64,000 nucleotides of DNA from Desulfovibrio sp. TomC (lineage in GTDB: Bacteria > Desulfobacterota > Desulfovibrionia > Desulfovibrionales > Desulfovibrionaceae), in NCBI RefSeq assembly GCF_000801335.2, contig NZ_JSEH01000006.1:124001-188000 (forward strand). The letters are read 5' to 3'. Shown piece after piece: positions 21,245-30,306 of the stretch. Position 1 is the first letter of the stretch, and every line of letters begins with the position of its first letter. The notes under the pieces are model-generated. The model was not told the origin of the DNA. It saw nothing but the letters and a program-made list of their open reading frames with translations, and ran no database searches. Both the position numbers and the translations under genes were made by a program.

Positions 21245-22480
21245 CTAGATCGGCCGCACCGCCACTTCGGTCGCGCCGGCGAGGCCTTCGCGGTCGGCGG
21301 CGATGGTGATGAGGCCGTCGGCCATGAGCAGCGTTTTGAGCAGCCCGGACTTGCCGAGCACGGGATGGGCCAGGGGCAGCGCGCCGGGGCGCTCTTCCAG
21401 GCGCACGCGCACGTGGTCTTCGCGGCCCTGCTTGGAGGCGATGTTGCGGGACAGGACGGCCGGGAAGGTGCGCGGGGTGCGGGTGAAGGCGGCCGGGTCG
21501 CCGGCCAGATGGGCCAGGAGCGGCAGGGCAAAGATGAGGAGCACGATCTGGGCCGAGGTGACCTGTCCGGGCAGGCCGATGACCGGTTTGCCGCCAAGCG
21601 AGGCCAGGATGGTCGGTTTGCCGGGACTGATGGCCACGCCGTGGGCCAGGATGTCCGCGCCGAGGTTTCGCAGGGCATCGAGGGTGAAATCGCGCGCGCC
21701 CACCGAGCTGCCGCCGGAGAGCAGCGTCAGGTCGTGGCTGGCGGCCGCAGTAGCCAGGGCGGCCTGGATGCCGGCCAGATCGTCGGGGACCAGGGGGAAG
21801 GCGGCGGGGGCGGCCCCGGCCTGACGCAGCATGGCGGCCAGGGTGTGGCTGTTGACGTCGCGGATCTGGCCGGGCAACGGCGTGGCCTCGGCCGGGACCA
21901 GTTCGTCGCCGGTGGAAAGTAAGGCCACGGCGGGAATTTTGCCGACCGTTGCCCGGGTAATGCCGAGCGCCGCCAGCAGGCCGATCTCCTGGGGACGCAG
22001 CACGGTCCCCCTGGCCAGCACCTGCTGGCCGGCGGCGGCGTCTTCGGCCGCCAGCATGATGTTGTCGCCCGGGGCCACGGACCGGCGCATTTCGATGGCT
22101 CCGGCTCCCATGTCCTCGGTGTATTCGACCATGACCACGGCATCGGCTCCGGCCGGCAGGAACGCGCCGGTCACGATGCGGGCGCAGTGGCCGGCGGGGA
22201 GCGGTTTGTCCGGGATGACGCCGATGGGGATGTCCATGGCCAGATCGAGGTAGCCGGGGTTGGATTCGGTTGTGCCGAAGACCTCGGCGGCCCGCACGGC
22301 GTAACCGTCCATGGCGGCGCGGCTGGCCGCGGGCAGGTCCTCGGCGGCCACGATGTCGGTGGCCAGGATACGGCTGCAAGCGGCATCAAGACTGACGGTT
22401 TCGCTGGCCAGGGGAGCAAACGTCCGCAGCAGATCGCGGAATTCGGCCGTGGACACGGCCCGGAAAAAACCTTCGCGCAT
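21245..22480 (-). CDS. moeA: Molybdopterin molybdenumtransferase MoeA
   Basis: 411 residues with the full MoeA layout. SRAAMDGYAVRA is the conserved N-terminal motif, STGDELV lies in the linker, LSGGSSVGARDF and GLPGQVTSA are the central MPT-binding loops, and a C-terminal domain IV is present. It inserts molybdate (or tungstate) into adenylylated molybdopterin. AAGGAT precedes ATG 22480 and overlaps the glk stop, so glk and moeA form a minus-strand operon. It is one of two MoeA paralogues in the window. Confidence 0.92.
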   Translation of the reverse strand: MREGFFRAVSTAEFRDLLRTFAPLASETVSLDAACSRILATDIVAAEDLPAASRAAMDGYAVRAAEVFGTTESNPGYLDLAMDIPIGVIPDKPLPAGHCARIVTGAFLPAGADAVVMVEYTEDMGAGAIEMRRSVAPGDNIMLAAEDAAAGQQVLARGTVLRPQEIGLLAALGITRATVGKIPAVALLSTGDELVPAEATPLPGQIRDVNSHTLAAMLRQAGAAPAAFPLVPDDLAGIQAALATAAASHDLTLLSGGSSVGARDFTLDALRNLGADILAHGVAISPGKPTILASLGGKPVIGLPGQVTSAQIVLLIFALPLLAHLAGDPAAFTRTPRTFPAVLSRNIASKQGREDHVRVRLEERPGALPLAHPVLGKSGLLKTLLMADGLITIAADREGLAGATEVAVRPI

Positions 22481-22487
22481 GGGGTGG

Positions 22488-23477
22488 CTATCCTTTGGAC
22501 GGGTTGGAGACGAGCAGGTTTCGGGCAATGGCGGCCGCACCATAGAGGCCCACATTTTCATCGCGCACCAGCCGCACCGGGATGCGCTCCAAAAACGCGG
22601 CGTAGGTGGGCGAGGCGTGAAACTCCCGGGCGAATTCGGGATGGGCGACGAGGAGCGGATTTTTCGCGGCCACGCCGCCGCTTATAAACACCCCGCCGGC
22701 CGCCAGCACGGTCAGGGCAAAATCGCGGGCGGCCCGGCCGTAGAAACGGGCAAAAAAGGCGGTTGTCGGGCTGTCGGCGACGAGTTGGCGGCTGATCTGG
22801 GCCGGGGTCAGGTCCTCGCCGGTCACAAACCGGTGGAGGTGGGCCAGGCCCGAGCCGGACAGGACGCTGTCGCCGCGCACGTAGGCTTCGCCCGTGGCCC
22901 GGGCCAGGTAATCGGCAAAGGCGGTTTCCTCTGGCCCGAAAAAAGGGGCGGCGGTCTGGCCGGCTTCCGAAGGCAGGGCCAGACTGGTCCCGTCGGCCAG
23001 GGGGATCAGGGCGGCATGGCCAAGGCCGGTGCCGGCTCCGATGACGGCCTGAATCCGGGCCGGGTCCATCGCGCCCGGCAGGATCATGTCGGCGCTGTCG
23101 CCAAGCAGGCGGCAACCGTGGGCCTGGGCCAGGAAATCATTGACGCAGGCGGTGCATTCCAGGCCGTGGGTCCGCTCCAGATCGGCCAGATCGAGGCTCC
23201 AGGCGATATTGGCAAAATGCACCGTGCGTCCGACCATGGCTCCGGGCACGGCAAAGGCGGCGGCCTGGACCTGGCCGAGGGGCAGATCAAATCCGGCTGC
23301 CGGCAGGGCGTCCAGGAGTTCGAGGAACGAGCCGGCCGCCTGGGTGGAAAGGCGGATCTGCCGGTCAAGCGTCAGTGCGCCGTCCGGGGCCAGGGTGAAA
23401 TGTCCGAAACGGCTGGTTGTACCGCCAATGTCGGCGGCCAGGATGTGCCGCAGCAAAGGCGTAGCCGGCTGGGACAT
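22488..23477 (-). CDS. glk: Glucokinase
   Basis: Bacterial Glk-family (PF02685-type) glucokinase of 329 residues: ATP-binding ILAADIGGTTSRFG near the N-terminus, the sugar-binding VNDFLAQAHG segment, GAGTGLGHAALIP and SGGVAAKN. It phosphorylates glucose to glucose-6-phosphate in the cytosol, which fits the glycogen phosphorylase encoded at 41.7 kb. ATG 23477 begins the family N-terminus. It is followed at 7 bp by moeA on the same strand. Confidence 0.9.
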   Translation of the reverse strand: MSQPATPLLRHILAADIGGTTSRFGHFTLAPDGALTLDRQIRLSTQAAGSFLELLDALPAAGFDLPLGQVQAAAFAVPGAMVGRTVHFANIAWSLDLADLERTHGLECTACVNDFLAQAHGCRLLGDSADMILPGAMDPARIQAVIGAGTGLGHAALIPLADGTSLALPSEAGQTAAPFFGPEETAFADYLARATGEAYVRGDSVLSGSGLAHLHRFVTGEDLTPAQISRQLVADSPTTAFFARFYGRAARDFALTVLAAGGVFISGGVAAKNPLLVAHPEFAREFHASPTYAAFLERIPVRLVRDENVGLYGAAAIARNLLVSNPSKG

Positions 23478-25185: not shown

Positions 25186-25243
25186 AAATCGGGGCGCTGC
25201 CCCGAACCCCGCCGGGGGGATCATCCCCCCGGACCCCCGGAAA
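25186..25243. repeat. Tandem GC-rich palindromic repeat array B
   Basis: A short version of the array: one unit with GGGGCGCTGCCCC plus GAACCCCGCC, then the terminal palindrome GGGGGGATCATCCCCCC with GGACCCCCGG. It starts 16 bp after the aguB stop and has the same order of modules as arrays A and C. Confidence 0.75.
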
Positions 25244-25291
25244 TGAGAATTTTAACGGGGGTAAATGGCATCGCAACACCCATCCCCGTTA

Positions 25292-25364
25292 AAAGTTTTT
25301 GGGGAAAGAGGGGGGCGCGGGGGGAGGAAACCCCTTTTTCCAAAAAGGGGTTTCCTCCCCCCGC
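25292..25364 (+). repeat. AAAAGTTTTT-linked long hairpin, copy B
   Basis: AAAAGTTTTTGGGG is followed by a perfect 23-bp inverted repeat (25317-25339 with 25342-25364) joined by CC. Its T-run lies in the left arm, not after the stem, so it is not a standard terminator. It ends 28 bp before the GTG start of the MoeA-fusion gene. Confidence 0.75.
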
Positions 25365-25392
25365 ATTCTCCCCCACACAACCGGAGGTCGCC

Positions 25393-27336
25393 GTGAGACG
25401 CAATATCTATCTGCGCACGATTCCTATTGAAGAAGCGCTGTCGCGGGTGATGGCCGAGCTTGATCGGGAGACGCTGGTGGGCGTGGAGCGCATCGGGGCC
25501 GAGCGCTCGGCCGGGCGCATCACGGCCGAGCCGGTCATGGCCCTGTACTCCTCGCCCACCTACCACAGCGCGGCCATGGACGGCATTGCCGTGCGCGCCG
25601 CCGAGACCTTTGCCGCCCGGGAAGGATCGCCGGTCCGGCTGGTTCAGGGCGAGAATTTCGTCTTCGTCAACACCGGCCATGCCATGCCGGCCTCCTATGA
25701 CGCCGTGATCATGATCGAAAACGTGGTCATGGACGGCGAGGCGGCCACCATCGAGTCGCCGGTGGCCCCGTTTGCCCATGTCCGGCGCATCGGCGAGGAC
25801 ATTGTGGCCACGGAGATGATTTTGCCGGGCCATCGCCGCATTTCGCCCTACGATGTGGGGGCGCTGTTGTCGTGCGGGGCGTATGACGTTTCAGTTTACG
25901 AACAAATCCGCATCCGGGTCATCCCCACCGGCGATGAGGTCATGGATTTCACCACCCGCCCTGCTCCCGGGCCGGGCCAGGTGGTGGAGAGCAATTCCAT
26001 GCTGCTGTGCGCCCTGGCCGACGAATGGGGCTTTGCCTGCCACCGGGTGCCGCCGGTGCCCGATGATCCCGAAGCCCTGGCCCAGGCGGTCAAAGAGGGT
26101 CTGGAATCGGACGCCCACATCGTGGTGACCGTGGCCGGGTCTTCGGCCGGCAGCAAGGATTTCGCCCGGGCCACCATGGAACGCTTCGGCCAGGTGCTGG
26201 TCCACGGCGTGGCTGCCATGCCGGGCAAGCCGTCGCTTCTGGGCGTGGCCAAGGGCGGCAAGCTGCTCGTTGGCGCACCGGGCTATCCGGTCAGCGCGGT
26301 GGTGTGTTTCGAGCGGCTGCTCTATCCCCTGGCCTGCTGGCTGACGCGCTCCGAGCCTCGTCGCCGTCAGACGGTGACGACGTCTCTGGCCCGCAGCGTC
26401 CCTTCGCGCCTGGGCATGGTGGATTTCGTGCGTCTGGCCGTGGGCCAGGTGGGAGATCGCTATGTGGCCCTGCCCCTGTCGCGTGGAGCGGGCAGCATCT
26501 CCACCATGACCAAGGCCCAGGCCGTGACCCAGCTGCCGGCCGAGGCCGAAGGCCTGGAGGCCGGAGCCGAGGTCACGGCCGAACTGCTCGTGGACGCCGG
26601 CGAACTGGAACGCACGCTGGTGTGCGTGGGCAGCCACGACAACACGCTGGACATCCTGGCCGATCTGCTCATGCGCCGGCTGCCCTCGATCCGGCTGGCT
26701 TCAAGCCATGTGGGCAGCATGGGCGGGCTTATCGCCCTGCGAAACGACGCGGCCATGATCGCCGGTTCCCACCTTTTTGACCCGGCCACCGGCGATTACA
26801 ATTTCCCGTTCCTCACCAAGTACCTCTCCGGCCTGGACGTCACCGTCATCAATCTGGCCATCCGCCAGCAGGGCCTGATCGTGGCCCCGGGCAATCCGCT
26901 GGGCATTGCCGGCGTGGCCGATCTGGCCGACGGCGCGGTGCGCTATTTAAACCGCCAGCGCGGAGCCGGAACCCGGATACTGTTTGATTACCATCTGGCC
27001 CAGGCCGGCATCGAACCGGGCCGGGTGTCGGGCTACGACCGCGAGGAGCACACCCACATGGCCGTTGCCGTCAACATCCACACCGGAGCGGCCGACTGCG
27101 GCCTGGGCGTCTATGCCGCCGCCAAGGCCTTGGGCCTGGACTTCGTGCCGCTGGCCCGGGAACGCTACGATCTGGTTGTGCCCACGGCCTATCTGGACGA
27201 TCCCAAGATCCGGGCGGTGTTCGAGGTGGTGGACAGTGCCGCCTTCAAGACCCGGGTCCATGAGCTTGGCGGTTACGAAACGGACTGGACCGGCCGGGTG
27301 ATGCAGCCGGGCATGGGGTTGCCGGGCGGGAAGTGA
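25393..27336 (+). CDS. MoeA fused to a substrate-binding-protein-like domain
   Basis: 647 residues. The first 400 or so are a MoeA domain (HSAAMDGIAVRA, PTGDEV, VTVAGSSAGSKDFA, GAPGYPVSAVVCFERLL). The last 200 form a periplasmic-binding-protein-like domain of the type fused to MoeA or ModE relatives (VCVGSHDNTLDILADLL, NRQRGAGTRILFDYHL, DCGLGVYAAAKALGLDFVP). It probably acts in molybdenum or tungsten cofactor insertion with an added sensing or anion-binding function. GTG 25393 has GGAGG eight bases upstream. It is distinct from the stand-alone MoeA at 21.2 kb. Confidence 0.88.
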   Translation: MRRNIYLRTIPIEEALSRVMAELDRETLVGVERIGAERSAGRITAEPVMALYSSPTYHSAAMDGIAVRAAETFAAREGSPVRLVQGENFVFVNTGHAMPASYDAVIMIENVVMDGEAATIESPVAPFAHVRRIGEDIVATEMILPGHRRISPYDVGALLSCGAYDVSVYEQIRIRVIPTGDEVMDFTTRPAPGPGQVVESNSMLLCALADEWGFACHRVPPVPDDPEALAQAVKEGLESDAHIVVTVAGSSAGSKDFARATMERFGQVLVHGVAAMPGKPSLLGVAKGGKLLVGAPGYPVSAVVCFERLLYPLACWLTRSEPRRRQTVTTSLARSVPSRLGMVDFVRLAVGQVGDRYVALPLSRGAGSISTMTKAQAVTQLPAEAEGLEAGAEVTAELLVDAGELERTLVCVGSHDNTLDILADLLMRRLPSIRLASSHVGSMGGLIALRNDAAMIAGSHLFDPATGDYNFPFLTKYLSGLDVTVINLAIRQQGLIVAPGNPLGIAGVADLADGAVRYLNRQRGAGTRILFDYHLAQAGIEPGRVSGYDREEHTHMAVAVNIHTGAADCGLGVYAAAKALGLDFVPLARERYDLVVPTAYLDDPKIRAVFEVVDSAAFKTRVHELGGYETDWTGRVMQPGMGLPGGK

Positions 27337-27403: not shown

Positions 27404-27676
27404 ATGGACTGGAAACTGTTAGCAACGACGTTTGCCACGATTTTCGTGGCCGAGCTTGGCGACAAGACGCAGCTGGCCTGCATCTTGACCGCCGCCGACT
27501 CCAGGAACCCCTGGGTGGTGTTTGCCGGTTCTTCGCTGGCCCTGGTCGCCACGTCGCTTTTGGGCGTGATCTTCGCCCAGTTCATCTGTAATTTCGTGTC
27601 GCCTGACATCATCAAGAAGGTCGCTGCCGTGGCCTTCGTGGTCATGGGCGTGCTGATTTATTTCGACAAACTGTAG
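27404..27676 (+). CDS. Half-size UPF0016/GDT1-family membrane protein
   Basis: 90 residues with three hydrophobic segments and one copy of the family motif ELGDKT (17-22). GDT1/TMEM165/MneA members are cation (Mn2+/Ca2+) transporters, normally with two such motifs in about 200 residues. A single-motif protein would have to work as a homo- or hetero-oligomer. Its stop codon TAG overlaps the ribosome-binding site of the selenoprotein gene that follows. Confidence 0.82.
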   Translation: MDWKLLATTFATIFVAELGDKTQLACILTAADSRNPWVVFAGSSLALVATSLLGVIFAQFICNFVSPDIIKKVAAVAFVVMGVLIYFDKL

Positions 27677-27684
27677 GAGTTCCC

Positions 27685-27918
27685 ATGGCCGGCGAGCGCC
27701 TTTCCTTTGATCTGCGCCAGATGTGCTGAGGCCTGGGGCTGGAGATAGGTTGGTATCTCCGACTTTCCCGGGCCGGCGAACTGGAATTTCTGGTGCCCCC
27801 CAAGGCCAGGGCGGTGCTTGAGGATCAGTTGGCCACGGTTTCGGGCTGGTTGCTCACTGTGGCCCAGGAGGACGGGCATCTGCGCGCGCTTTTTTGCCGT
27901 GCCGCTCCCCAGGGCTGA
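27685..27918 (+). CDS. TusA/SirA-like selenoprotein (TGA 27727-27729 read as Sec)
   Basis: Reading through the TGA gives 77 residues with Sec at position 15. The N-terminus reads SFDLRQMC-Sec-GLG, aligning with the DLRGLxCPxP active site of TusA/SirA proteins, so Sec falls on the catalytic cysteine. The rest follows the TusA layout (AGELEFLV, then AQEDGHLRALF). AGGAG overlaps the upstream stop, five bases before ATG 27685. A hairpin 18 nt after the TGA resembles a bacterial SECIS. Such proteins move sulfur or selenium; the neighbouring MoeA-fusion gene hints at Mo/W-cofactor or selenium metabolism. A nonsense-mutated tusA gene is the alternative. A caller treating TGA as stop would miss it. 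Confidence 0.68.
27741..27760 (+). promoter_or_regulatory. Predicted SECIS hairpin
   Basis: GGAGATA (27741-27747) pairs perfectly with TATCTCC (27754-27760) around the loop GGTTGG. The loop starts exactly 18 nt after the TGA, as in the E. coli fdhF SECIS element, whose loop also begins with GGU, the bases SelB contacts. The hairpin is inside the reading frame, as bacterial SECIS elements are. No bulged U comparable to that of fdhF is evident, so function needs a test. Confidence 0.62.
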
Positions 27919-27990
27919 CCCAGCCGCGCTGAGGGCGGGGCGCTAGCCCGGAAGCTGGACAATTTAAGGGAATTGGTATTGAGGATAGGG

Positions 27991-30306
27991 ATGAGAATCC
28001 CTCTCCAGGCGCTTTGGACGCGGCTCACAGGCGGGTCCATCACCACGATACTGGTCGGCGTCGTGCTCCTGGCGGCTCTGCCGGCCATGACGGCCATCGT
28101 CTGGACCAGCTTCGACGCCCGCAGCCGGGCCAAAGCCGAGGCCATCTACCAGCTCTCCATCGTCTCCCACAGCCTGGCCGTGGCCCAGCGCACCATTACC
28201 GCCCAGGCCATCAACCTGCTTGGCGTCCTGGCCGCCGCCGAACCGGTCAGAAGCCAGGACCGGCCGGCGGCAAGCGTCCTTTTTGCCTCCATCCTGCGCG
28301 AGCATTCGGAACTTTCCAATCTGTTTATGACCAATGCCGCCGGTCGCGTCACGGCTTCGGGCCTGCGGTCGTTTCTGGACATCGATCTTTCCGACCGCAA
28401 ATATTTCCAGGATGTGGCGGCGACCAACGCCCCGAGCGTGGGCGATTTCATCCTGGGCCGTTCGAGCGGCAAGCCCATCATGGTCTTCGCCGTGCCGTTG
28501 CACGACGCCGACGGCGCCATGTCCGGCGTGCTTGGCCTGTCCTATTATCTCGACGGCTACGAACGGATGCTGCAAGGCTTGGTGATGCCCCCCCATGCCC
28601 GGGTCACCCTGCTCGACTACCAGGGGCGGCGCATGATCGCCTCTCCGGCCAACCCCGCCTACCCTCTGGGGCAACAGGCCCACCCTCCGGCCTGGGCCAG
28701 AATGCGCGACAGCGCGGCAGACGAGGGGGTTTTCATCGGCTCGCGGCCGACCGGCCAGGAAGCCATCTTCAGTTTTATCCGTCTGCGTCTGGCCCCAGAC
28801 CAACCGCCCTACCTCACCATCGTGATCACCAGCGCCCTCTTTGAAGCCTATGCCAACGCCGACGCCTTGCTCTCCCGGGGACTGGCCCTGGCCGGTCTGG
28901 CCACGTTGCTGGCCCTGGTCATTGCCCGGTTGGCCGGACAGGCCGCCATCGGACGCGGCCTCGCCGCCCTGGGCGCTGCGGCTGCCCGGTTGGCCGGCGG
29001 CGACCTGTCGACCAGGGTCGACTCCTCCCTCGGAGCCCTGGAACTGGGGCAACTTGGCCGCAACTTCAATGCCATGGCCGACACCATTGAGATCAGGGAA
29101 CAGCAACTGGCCCAGGCCGCCAGGGCCTTGGACAAGGTGCGCAACCAGTTAAGCAATATCCTCGAATCAATGCCCTCAGCCATCATCGGCGTGGACGCCG
29201 CCGGCCGCGTCAGCCATTTCAACGCCCAGGCCGTGGCCCTGTTCGCCCGAACCCGCGAAGCCGTCATCGGCAGCGACGCCGCAACCGCCGTGCCCTTTCT
29301 TGCCGAGCATAGGCGCACCATGGAAGCCGCCCTGCGGGAACGCCGCAGCATGGTCCTCGAACGCATGCCCCTGTGCCACAATGGCGACTGCGACCTCGTC
29401 ACCATGCTGTTTTATCCGCTGGTGGCCAATGGCGTCGACGGCGTGGTTATCCGCATCGACGACATCACCGAACGCGAACGGCTGCGCGAACTCATGATCC
29501 AGACCGAAAAAATGATGAGCGTCGGCGGGCTGGCCGCCGGCATGGCCCATGAGATCAATAATCCGCTGGGCAGCATCCTCCAGGCCGCCCAGGTCGTGGA
29601 AATGCAGCTCGATCCGGCCATCCCGGCCAATCAGGCGGCCGCTGCCCAGGCCGGGATTACGGTTGAAGCCGTGCGCGCCTATCTGGAGGCCCGCAAGGTG
29701 CTTAAGTTCATTGCCGGCATCCGTGAGGCCGGGGTGCGCGCCGCCGGCATTGTGGCCAGTATGCTGGAATTTTCCCGGCAAAGCGATTCACGCCAGGCCC
29801 CGGCTGACGTCCGGACCATGGTGGACAAAAGCCTGGCCCTGGCCGAAAGTGACTATGATCTTAAAAAGAAATATGATTTCAGACATATAACCATAGTTCG
29901 CGACTATCCGGAACATCCGGTCGAGGTCGTCTGCGCGGCCACGGAAATCGAGCAGGTGCTGCTCAATCTCCTCAAGAATGCCGCCCATGCCCTGGCCGCG
30001 ACCACCGACCCGACCCGGAAACCGACCATCACCGTCGGCATCCGTCCCCTGCCCGAGGCCGTGGAAATCACGGTGGCCGACAATGGTCCCGGCATGGACG
30101 AAGCCGTGCGGGCCAGAATCTTCGAGCCGTTTTACACCACCAAGCCCCAGGGCGAAGGCACGGGCCTGGGCCTGTCGGTGTCCTACTTCATCATTGTCAA
30201 CAACCACGGCGGGGCCATTCGCATGGATTCCACTCCGGGCCAGGGAGCCGTCTGCACCGTCACCCTGCCCTGTTTGCCGCGCCCACCCCGAGGAGGAACG
30301 GCATGA
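27991..30306 (+). CDS. Membrane sensor histidine kinase (Cache-HAMP-PAS-HisKA-HATPase)
   Basis: 771 residues. One membrane segment at about 20-42, a periplasmic Cache-type sensor domain (about 43-285), a second membrane segment near 290-310, HAMP, a PAS domain (about 385-490), then the kinase. The phospho-acceptor is His520 in GMAHEINNPLGS; N-box NLLKNAAHAL and G-boxes DNGPGMD and GTGLGLSVSY are intact. GAGG six bases before ATG 27991 sets the start. The stop overlaps the start of a receiver protein gene as ATGA, so the two are a cognate pair. The signal is unknown, probably a small organic ligand. Confidence 0.92.
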   Translation: MRIPLQALWTRLTGGSITTILVGVVLLAALPAMTAIVWTSFDARSRAKAEAIYQLSIVSHSLAVAQRTITAQAINLLGVLAAAEPVRSQDRPAASVLFASILREHSELSNLFMTNAAGRVTASGLRSFLDIDLSDRKYFQDVAATNAPSVGDFILGRSSGKPIMVFAVPLHDADGAMSGVLGLSYYLDGYERMLQGLVMPPHARVTLLDYQGRRMIASPANPAYPLGQQAHPPAWARMRDSAADEGVFIGSRPTGQEAIFSFIRLRLAPDQPPYLTIVITSALFEAYANADALLSRGLALAGLATLLALVIARLAGQAAIGRGLAALGAAAARLAGGDLSTRVDSSLGALELGQLGRNFNAMADTIEIREQQLAQAARALDKVRNQLSNILESMPSAIIGVDAAGRVSHFNAQAVALFARTREAVIGSDAATAVPFLAEHRRTMEAALRERRSMVLERMPLCHNGDCDLVTMLFYPLVANGVDGVVIRIDDITERERLRELMIQTEKMMSVGGLAAGMAHEINNPLGSILQAAQVVEMQLDPAIPANQAAAAQAGITVEAVRAYLEARKVLKFIAGIREAGVRAAGIVASMLEFSRQSDSRQAPADVRTMVDKSLALAESDYDLKKKYDFRHITIVRDYPEHPVEVVCAATEIEQVLLNLLKNAAHALAATTDPTRKPTITVGIRPLPEAVEITVADNGPGMDEAVRARIFEPFYTTKPQGEGTGLGLSVSYFIIVNNHGGAIRMDSTPGQGAVCTVTLPCLPRPPRGGTA

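Follow-up and report, generated by a model that had tools for sequence, protein, structure and literature searches.

The window, that is, the whole 64,000-nt stretch of Desulfovibrio sp. TomC DNA that was analysed, contains a short open frame interrupted by TGA, preceded on the same strand by genes for a MoeA-PBP fusion and for one half of a GDT1/UPF0016 cation antiporter (Table 1). The frame starts at ATG 27685 and, past the in-frame TGA, ends at a second TGA (27916-27918). With the first TGA read as selenocysteine (Sec, U), the translation is MAGERLSFDLRQMCUGLGLEIGWYLRLSRAGELEFLVPPKARAVLEDQLATVSGWLLTVAQEDGHLRALFCRAAPQG. A preliminary description of this DNA had proposed such a read-through protein of 77 residues, with its ribosome-binding site on the preceding stop. 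The frame was confirmed, and GGAG does overlap the TAG of the GDT1/UPF0016 gene (27674-27676). A second MoeA-like open frame, recognised by eye from its translation, lies near the fusion gene on the opposite strand (window 21245-22561).

Table 1. Positions in the window of the predicted selenoprotein gene, its parts and its upstream neighbours
Feature	Position	Strand	Remarks
Predicted selenoprotein gene	27685-27918	+	77 aa; Sec is residue 15 (C14-U15-G16)
In-frame TGA read as selenocysteine	27727-27729	+	Homologue TGA in 164/348 class genomes and 32/32 named loci
SECIS-type hairpin	27730-27774	+	Shuffled-fold comparison; synonymous-site covariation (upper stem)
Ribosome-binding site GGAG	27676-27679	+	Overlaps upstream TAG stop
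GDT1/UPF0016 cation antiporter half, 90 aa	27404-27676	+	Upstream neighbour; adjacent in 11/101 loci
MoeA-PBP fusion	25243-27336	+	NCBIfam NF011068; local neighbour only

Selenocysteine coding at the in-frame TGA

The genes selA, selB, selC and selD, of which a missing selB or selC would have counted against Sec insertion, are all present in the genome: SelA was found at 612 bits, SelB at 374 bits, SelD at 331 bits and tRNA-Sec, with anticodon TCA, at 83 bits. The three other matches over the Rfam cut-off in the tRNA-Sec search are two Ser tRNAs and one Trp tRNA. SelD of this genome itself has one in-frame TGA. Across the class, SelB was found in 284 of 348 genomes, with 152 of the 164 carriers of the TGA gene positive vs 132 of the 184 others; the 12 carriers where it was not found are all drafts of 30 or more contigs. 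Since those 132 SelB-positive genomes are without the Sec form, the Sec trait is not sufficient for the gene.

The window protein was used to search 99 relatives, 68 of which matched at E <= 1. The 59 places with E <= 2.7e-4 have an in-frame TGA in 57 cases and no stop in two. A profile search of the 348 class genomes matched 167, and in 164 of these the homologue has the in-frame TGA (G101, locus L212, among them), in agreement with the proposed reading of TGA as a Sec codon; the other three are G256 and G259, with a distant Cys relative only, and G110, with a changed orthologue. A scan of a collection of named genomes found the pattern in 43 stretches and confirmed 32 loci, every one with TGA, from Desulfovibrio, Solidesulfovibrio, Pseudodesulfovibrio, Humidesulfovibrio, Salidesulfovibrio, Desulfonatronovibrio and less precisely named MAGs. 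In a phylum sample of 395 genomes there were six matches, all in the window's own family. In the searches made here the TGA-gene family was seen only in the window's order, the named loci being Desulfovibrionales.

From these searches 126 distinct TGA genes were collected, with Cys before Sec in 125 and Gly after Sec in 114. Their terminators are mixed (TGA 76, TAA 25, TAG 25), which rules out a general reassignment of TGA. The frame after the TGA is under purifying selection: over 58 codons the Nei-Gojobori omega between the window gene and nine relatives was 0.19-0.30 in eight comparisons and 0.59 in the ninth, with a gene from another genus (L022).

Some members depart from the common pattern. 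A divergent TGA copy at G327:C2:610070-610285 (L134; 31 bits) may be degenerating or may have changed its function. A subgroup in genus g22 (L121, L123, L128-L130, L132) has EISFYLG instead of EIGWYLR, along with an altered loop, and in one of its members, L132, Gly replaces the Cys before Sec.

The sequence that follows the TGA folds into the hairpin already described for it. Its upper stem of 7 bp joins 27741-27747 to 27754-27760, with an extra T-G wobble at 27740/27761, and closes on the apical loop GGTTGG (27748-27753), 18 nt from the TGA; the lower stem joins 27730-27738 to 27766-27774. The 54-nt fold has an energy of -27.5 kcal/mol vs -18.8 +/- 2.9 for shuffled sequences, none of 200 being as good. 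An Rfam scan of 27600-28000 returned one chance match only (E 8.5).

Conservation of the stem was assessed on 115 distinct 48-mers, in which the seven pairs make 805 cells. Watson-Crick pairs fill 706 of these. Codons redrawn for the same protein filled 440 +/- 11 (maximum 471 in 500 trials), and synonymous codons permuted within columns, keeping the same residue, filled 645 +/- 5.6 (maximum 666), with 0 of 1000 permutations reaching 706. At codon 6 after the TGA, Ile is ATA in 34 of its 40 occurrences and Val is GTA in 42 of 65, against backgrounds of 13% and 10%, respectively, in pooled long ORFs of the loci, which may contain some false ORFs. The Tyr codon follows the base with which it pairs (A, TAT in 37 of 37; G, TAC in 31 and TAT in 14; p 5.5e-12), and the third base of Val is A in 40 of the 43 cases where Tyr follows vs 2 of the 21 where His does (p 3e-11); these p-values ignore ancestry, and Fisher and permutation tests alike take no account of it. 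Because many sequences have His instead of Tyr, only 82 of the 115 form the innermost pair. Position 2 of the loop is G in 114 of the 115.

Bacterial SECIS elements are characterised by a stem-loop right after the UGA, a small apical loop and a conserved G (PMC1088965). The window family has the stem-loop following its TGA, the small loop and the loop G, together with the covariation. The hairpin is under RNA-level selection, with rare Ile and Val codons favoured and compensatory synonymous changes in excess of a protein-preserving null. The preliminary description had judged the arrangement hard to explain by chance and had named an unconserved hairpin as a reason to abandon it; the recurrence of TGA in 57 of 59 places and the excess of paired cells over the protein-preserving resampling bear that judgement out.

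That the TGA might be an ordinary stop, ending a leader of 14 codons or a TusA-like gene in decay and leaving the downstream frame and hairpin as chance or remnant, is scarcely conceivable: no library names the protein and the G327 copy looks divergent or decayed, but TGA with an open frame is held in 164 genomes down to ~30% identity, selection acts on the codons after it and the hairpin covaries at synonymous sites. We regard the Sec identity of this TGA as near certain, and the gene seemingly broken by a stop very probably encodes, as predicted, a real selenium-containing protein.

Predicted fold and cysteine counterparts

A structure was predicted with AlphaFold2 from an alignment of 31 members. 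These were the window protein and, with L056 and L064 excluded because of long tails, 30 proteins from the 32 named loci. The model has a pLDDT of 90.8 and the elements E5-9, H17-27, E32-37, H39-51, E55-62 and E65-72, a predicted beta-alpha-beta-alpha-beta-beta arrangement of the IF3-like type, as in the TusA/SirA family. Foldseek gave no match to it at E <= 0.001; the first match was SirA-like 3HZ7 (E 7e-3), and chains of Tdp2 and SpoVS came next. On Foldseek's list, VIA-align scored 3HZ7 at Z 9.7, YeeE-YeeD at 9.4 (8K1R) and 8.8 (8J4C) and Escherichia coli TusA at 8.7 (3LVJ) and 8.6 (3LVK). Entries for IF3, Smr and Alba scored below all of these, at Z 7-8.4, so the fold alone is not specific.

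The model points to a TusA/SirA-like fold, the likeness to 3LVJ and 3HZ7 extending over 69-72 residues. Judged from position ranges, Sec would lie just before helix 1, where TusA has its sulfur-accepting Cys. In the IscS-TusA complex that acceptor is Cys19, with Asp45 and Asp51 nearby (PMC2854127); by eye, no conserved Asp matching the Asp45/Asp51 region was seen in the Sec family.

The link in sequence is weak. PF01206, the TusA/SirA profile, matched none of 30 members at E <= 1, and stray matches to other families were at E 0.03 or worse. The CPxP motif of TusA is absent from the Sec family, which has C-U-G in its place, with Sec-Gly for Cys-Pro and a further conserved Cys before the Sec. 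Comparison by hhalign of the Sec family with 31 TusA sequences gave a probability of 25.5%, over the C-terminal half only, and the Sec profile, searched against PDB sequences, found no relative below E 0.9. We therefore name the family TusA-fold rather than counting it in PF01206. Of the TusA plan first suggested for this protein, the predicted fold and the probable placing of Sec at the catalytic-Cys position stand, and membership by sequence does not.

DsrE-like and rhodanese-like selenoproteins presumably have folds other than that of the window family. They are alike in being predicted Sec proteins of sulfurtransferase type, and different in the motifs given for them in Table 1 of a 2026 review (PMC13188914).

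Proteins with Cys at the Sec position were also found. Eight members of a Cys family with the motif xCGL[IVM]P (L107-L112, L124, L133) occur in the same order, and six of nine genomes examined (G033, G037, G041, G044, G049, G055) have both Sec and Cys forms. The profile of the eight aligned with the Sec profile in hhalign over 74 columns (probability 99.1, E 4e-19), with Cys at the Sec column, which answers the earlier suggestion that homologues be checked for Cys or Sec at the TGA. The two are homologous over their full length, and the Cys protein differs in having Cys for Sec, a Pro four residues later and a separate locus. Its first Cys is missing in five of the eight members. Against TusA the Cys family gave a probability of 45% in hhalign, with the Cys columns in register; the six members scanned with Pfam had no significant match. 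L107, L108 and L111 end in a tail of [DN]PLN type.

The orthologue in G110 (L125, G110:C7:10374-10589) has no TGA, and shows C-P-C-T where others have C-U-G. It keeps the same operon place, beside MBL-fold and flavoprotein genes, and the TGA is retained in the congeners G109 and G066. The SelB search gave no match in G110, an uncertain absence because this draft is only 85% complete. The G110 gene is possibly a natural case of Sec loss. Cys counterparts of the Sec family are distant relatives and this one changed orthologue only.

Gene neighbourhood and possible function

Neighbours were tallied in 101 loci, those of the 105 left after removal of duplicates that have 1.5 kb of sequence on either side. 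Many of them are from genus g5; genes farther than 1.5 kb from the Sec gene are undercounted in this set. A same-strand flavoprotein gene (PF03358/PF02525) starts <=600 nt downstream in 83 of 101 loci. A gene for an MBL-fold protein, GloB-like and below the cut-off of the GloB model, is present on the same strand in 79 loci and immediately precedes the Sec gene in 73; the order MBL-Sec-flavoprotein is found in 73. Other same-strand neighbours are ComF (82), nitroreductase-like (63), L27 (53) and Obg (44). GDT1 and the MoeA-PBP homologue are nearby on the same strand in 11 of 101 loci each, and the 11 with GDT1 all belong to genera g1 (that of the window) and g41. Among the recurrent neighbour clusters that were read, none was recognised as a sel gene; at the G043 locus selB is nearby, on the opposite strand.

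The flavoprotein, of FMN_red/Flavodoxin_2 type, has an invariant C-x2-C-x2-C-x7-C (cysteines 48, 51, 54 and 62) in an alignment of 16 of the 90 cluster flavoproteins; 14 were dropped because they misfit the motif pattern, and the remainder for similarity, length or choice. A PDB search with its profile found two weak relatives. It may resemble the archaeal iron-sulfur flavoproteins. In the window genome the MBL, flavoprotein and ComF genes are together on another contig (L258 2308-4445) without a Sec gene, and the same operon occurs in genomes of two genera that lack the Sec gene (g28, g48), where the gap between the MBL and flavoprotein frames is <=32 nt in the five loci read. At E <= 1e-25 the flavoprotein profile matched 324 of 348 genomes, namely 161 of 164 carriers and 163 of 184 non-carriers (counted by hand). 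The flavoprotein, then, does not need the Sec protein. The carriers without a match (G002, G007, G234) are 69, 89 and 66% complete. In genus g5, G311 is the sole genome without a flavoprotein match and also the sole one without the Sec gene; in genus g29, G256 and G259 are likewise the only ones without either. These joint absences are suggestive of a shared role. Flavoprotein matches in G302, G312 and G334 contain a TGA, which in G312 is an ordinary terminator.

In the mechanism that we tentatively favour, Sec15 would accept sulfane sulfur or an electron pair through its selenol, and Cys14 would serve as the resolving thiol. The Cys14-Sec15 relay, passing between selenol and selenenylsulfide, would exchange sulfur or electrons, in either direction, with the four-cysteine flavoprotein, which is encoded beside the Sec gene in most loci read, along with the MBL-fold hydrolase. 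Such a sulfur/redox relay is plausible, and we put it forward with less than even confidence.

In mammalian thioredoxin reductase the C-terminal Gly-Cys-Sec-Gly has a vicinal pair to which Cys14-Sec15 can be likened. The window protein might by this analogy be purely a thiol/disulfide redox protein, its vicinal selenenylsulfide reduced by the flavoprotein with no carriage of sulfur. The near-universal Cys14, the Gly usual after Sec and the four invariant cysteines of the partner agree with that, but the closest folds found are those of sulfur-carrier proteins and most of the Cys family does without the first Cys; we consider it somewhat unlikely.

A role in selenium homeostasis, as a carrier or sensor feeding or sensing the SelD pathway, seems improbable. 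Carriers of the gene are mostly SelB-positive, and we assume YedF to be a TusA domain protein. A part for YedF in Se-related redox processes has been proposed (PMC9312934). The recurrent neighbour clusters read, however, include no recognised sel gene, and the selB near the G043 gene is on the other strand.

The preliminary description looked instead to the adjacent MoeA, suggesting that selenium or sulfur is delivered to an enzyme of the Mo/W type, for example formate dehydrogenase. GDT1 and MoeA-PBP do adjoin the gene in the window, and PA1006 of Pseudomonas is presumably TusA-like. PA1006, which is persulfide-modified, affects molybdenum homeostasis (PMC3568144). Against this, MoeA accompanies the gene in 11 of 101 loci vs 73 with the MBL-Sec-flavoprotein order, the GDT1 setting is limited to two genera and the usual surroundings are MBL-flavoprotein-ComF, L27 and Obg being frequent as well; the Mo/W link is not supported, and we think this role very doubtful.

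Novelty of the family and its meaning

In Pfam and NCBIfam (June 2026) the family members scanned had no significant match. Table 1 of the 2026 review has 119 prokaryotic selenoprotein families or subfamilies with no TusA or SirA entry, and these words are absent from its main text (PMC13188914). A literature search covering titles and the starts of abstracts, a scope that leaves aside supplements and many subscription papers, returned no prior description of such a family. Within the literature and databases searched the family is undescribed. We hold it highly probable that the gene is a true selenoprotein gene of a family that we found listed nowhere.

Standard searches may have missed the family because almost no members have Cys for Sec. 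One published pipeline, as set out in PMC1088965, kept a TGA frame only with at least two Cys homologues. For deep-Sep, all new families are given as having Cys homologues, and its Table 2 credits Desulfomicrobium orale DSM 12838 with six known and no new selenoproteins (PMC12013277). That at least one pipeline required Cys homologues is a likely reason why the family went undescribed. This points to a blind spot: selenoprotein families without close Cys orthologues may escape searches that require Cys.

Because several of the carriers are named isolates, a direct test of the question looks feasible. The finding contributes a further Sec-dependent family, built on a carrier fold, that is absent from the 2026 inventory table and kept by many sulfate-reducing bacteria. 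Perhaps, though we would not lean on it, this Sec-dependent TusA-fold branch, with its vicinal Cys-Sec, a four-cysteine flavoprotein and an MBL-fold hydrolase, may form a sulfane-sulfur/persulfide reductase module of the Desulfovibrionales, and may also be an exemplar of selenoproteins hidden by the scarcity of Cys orthologues.
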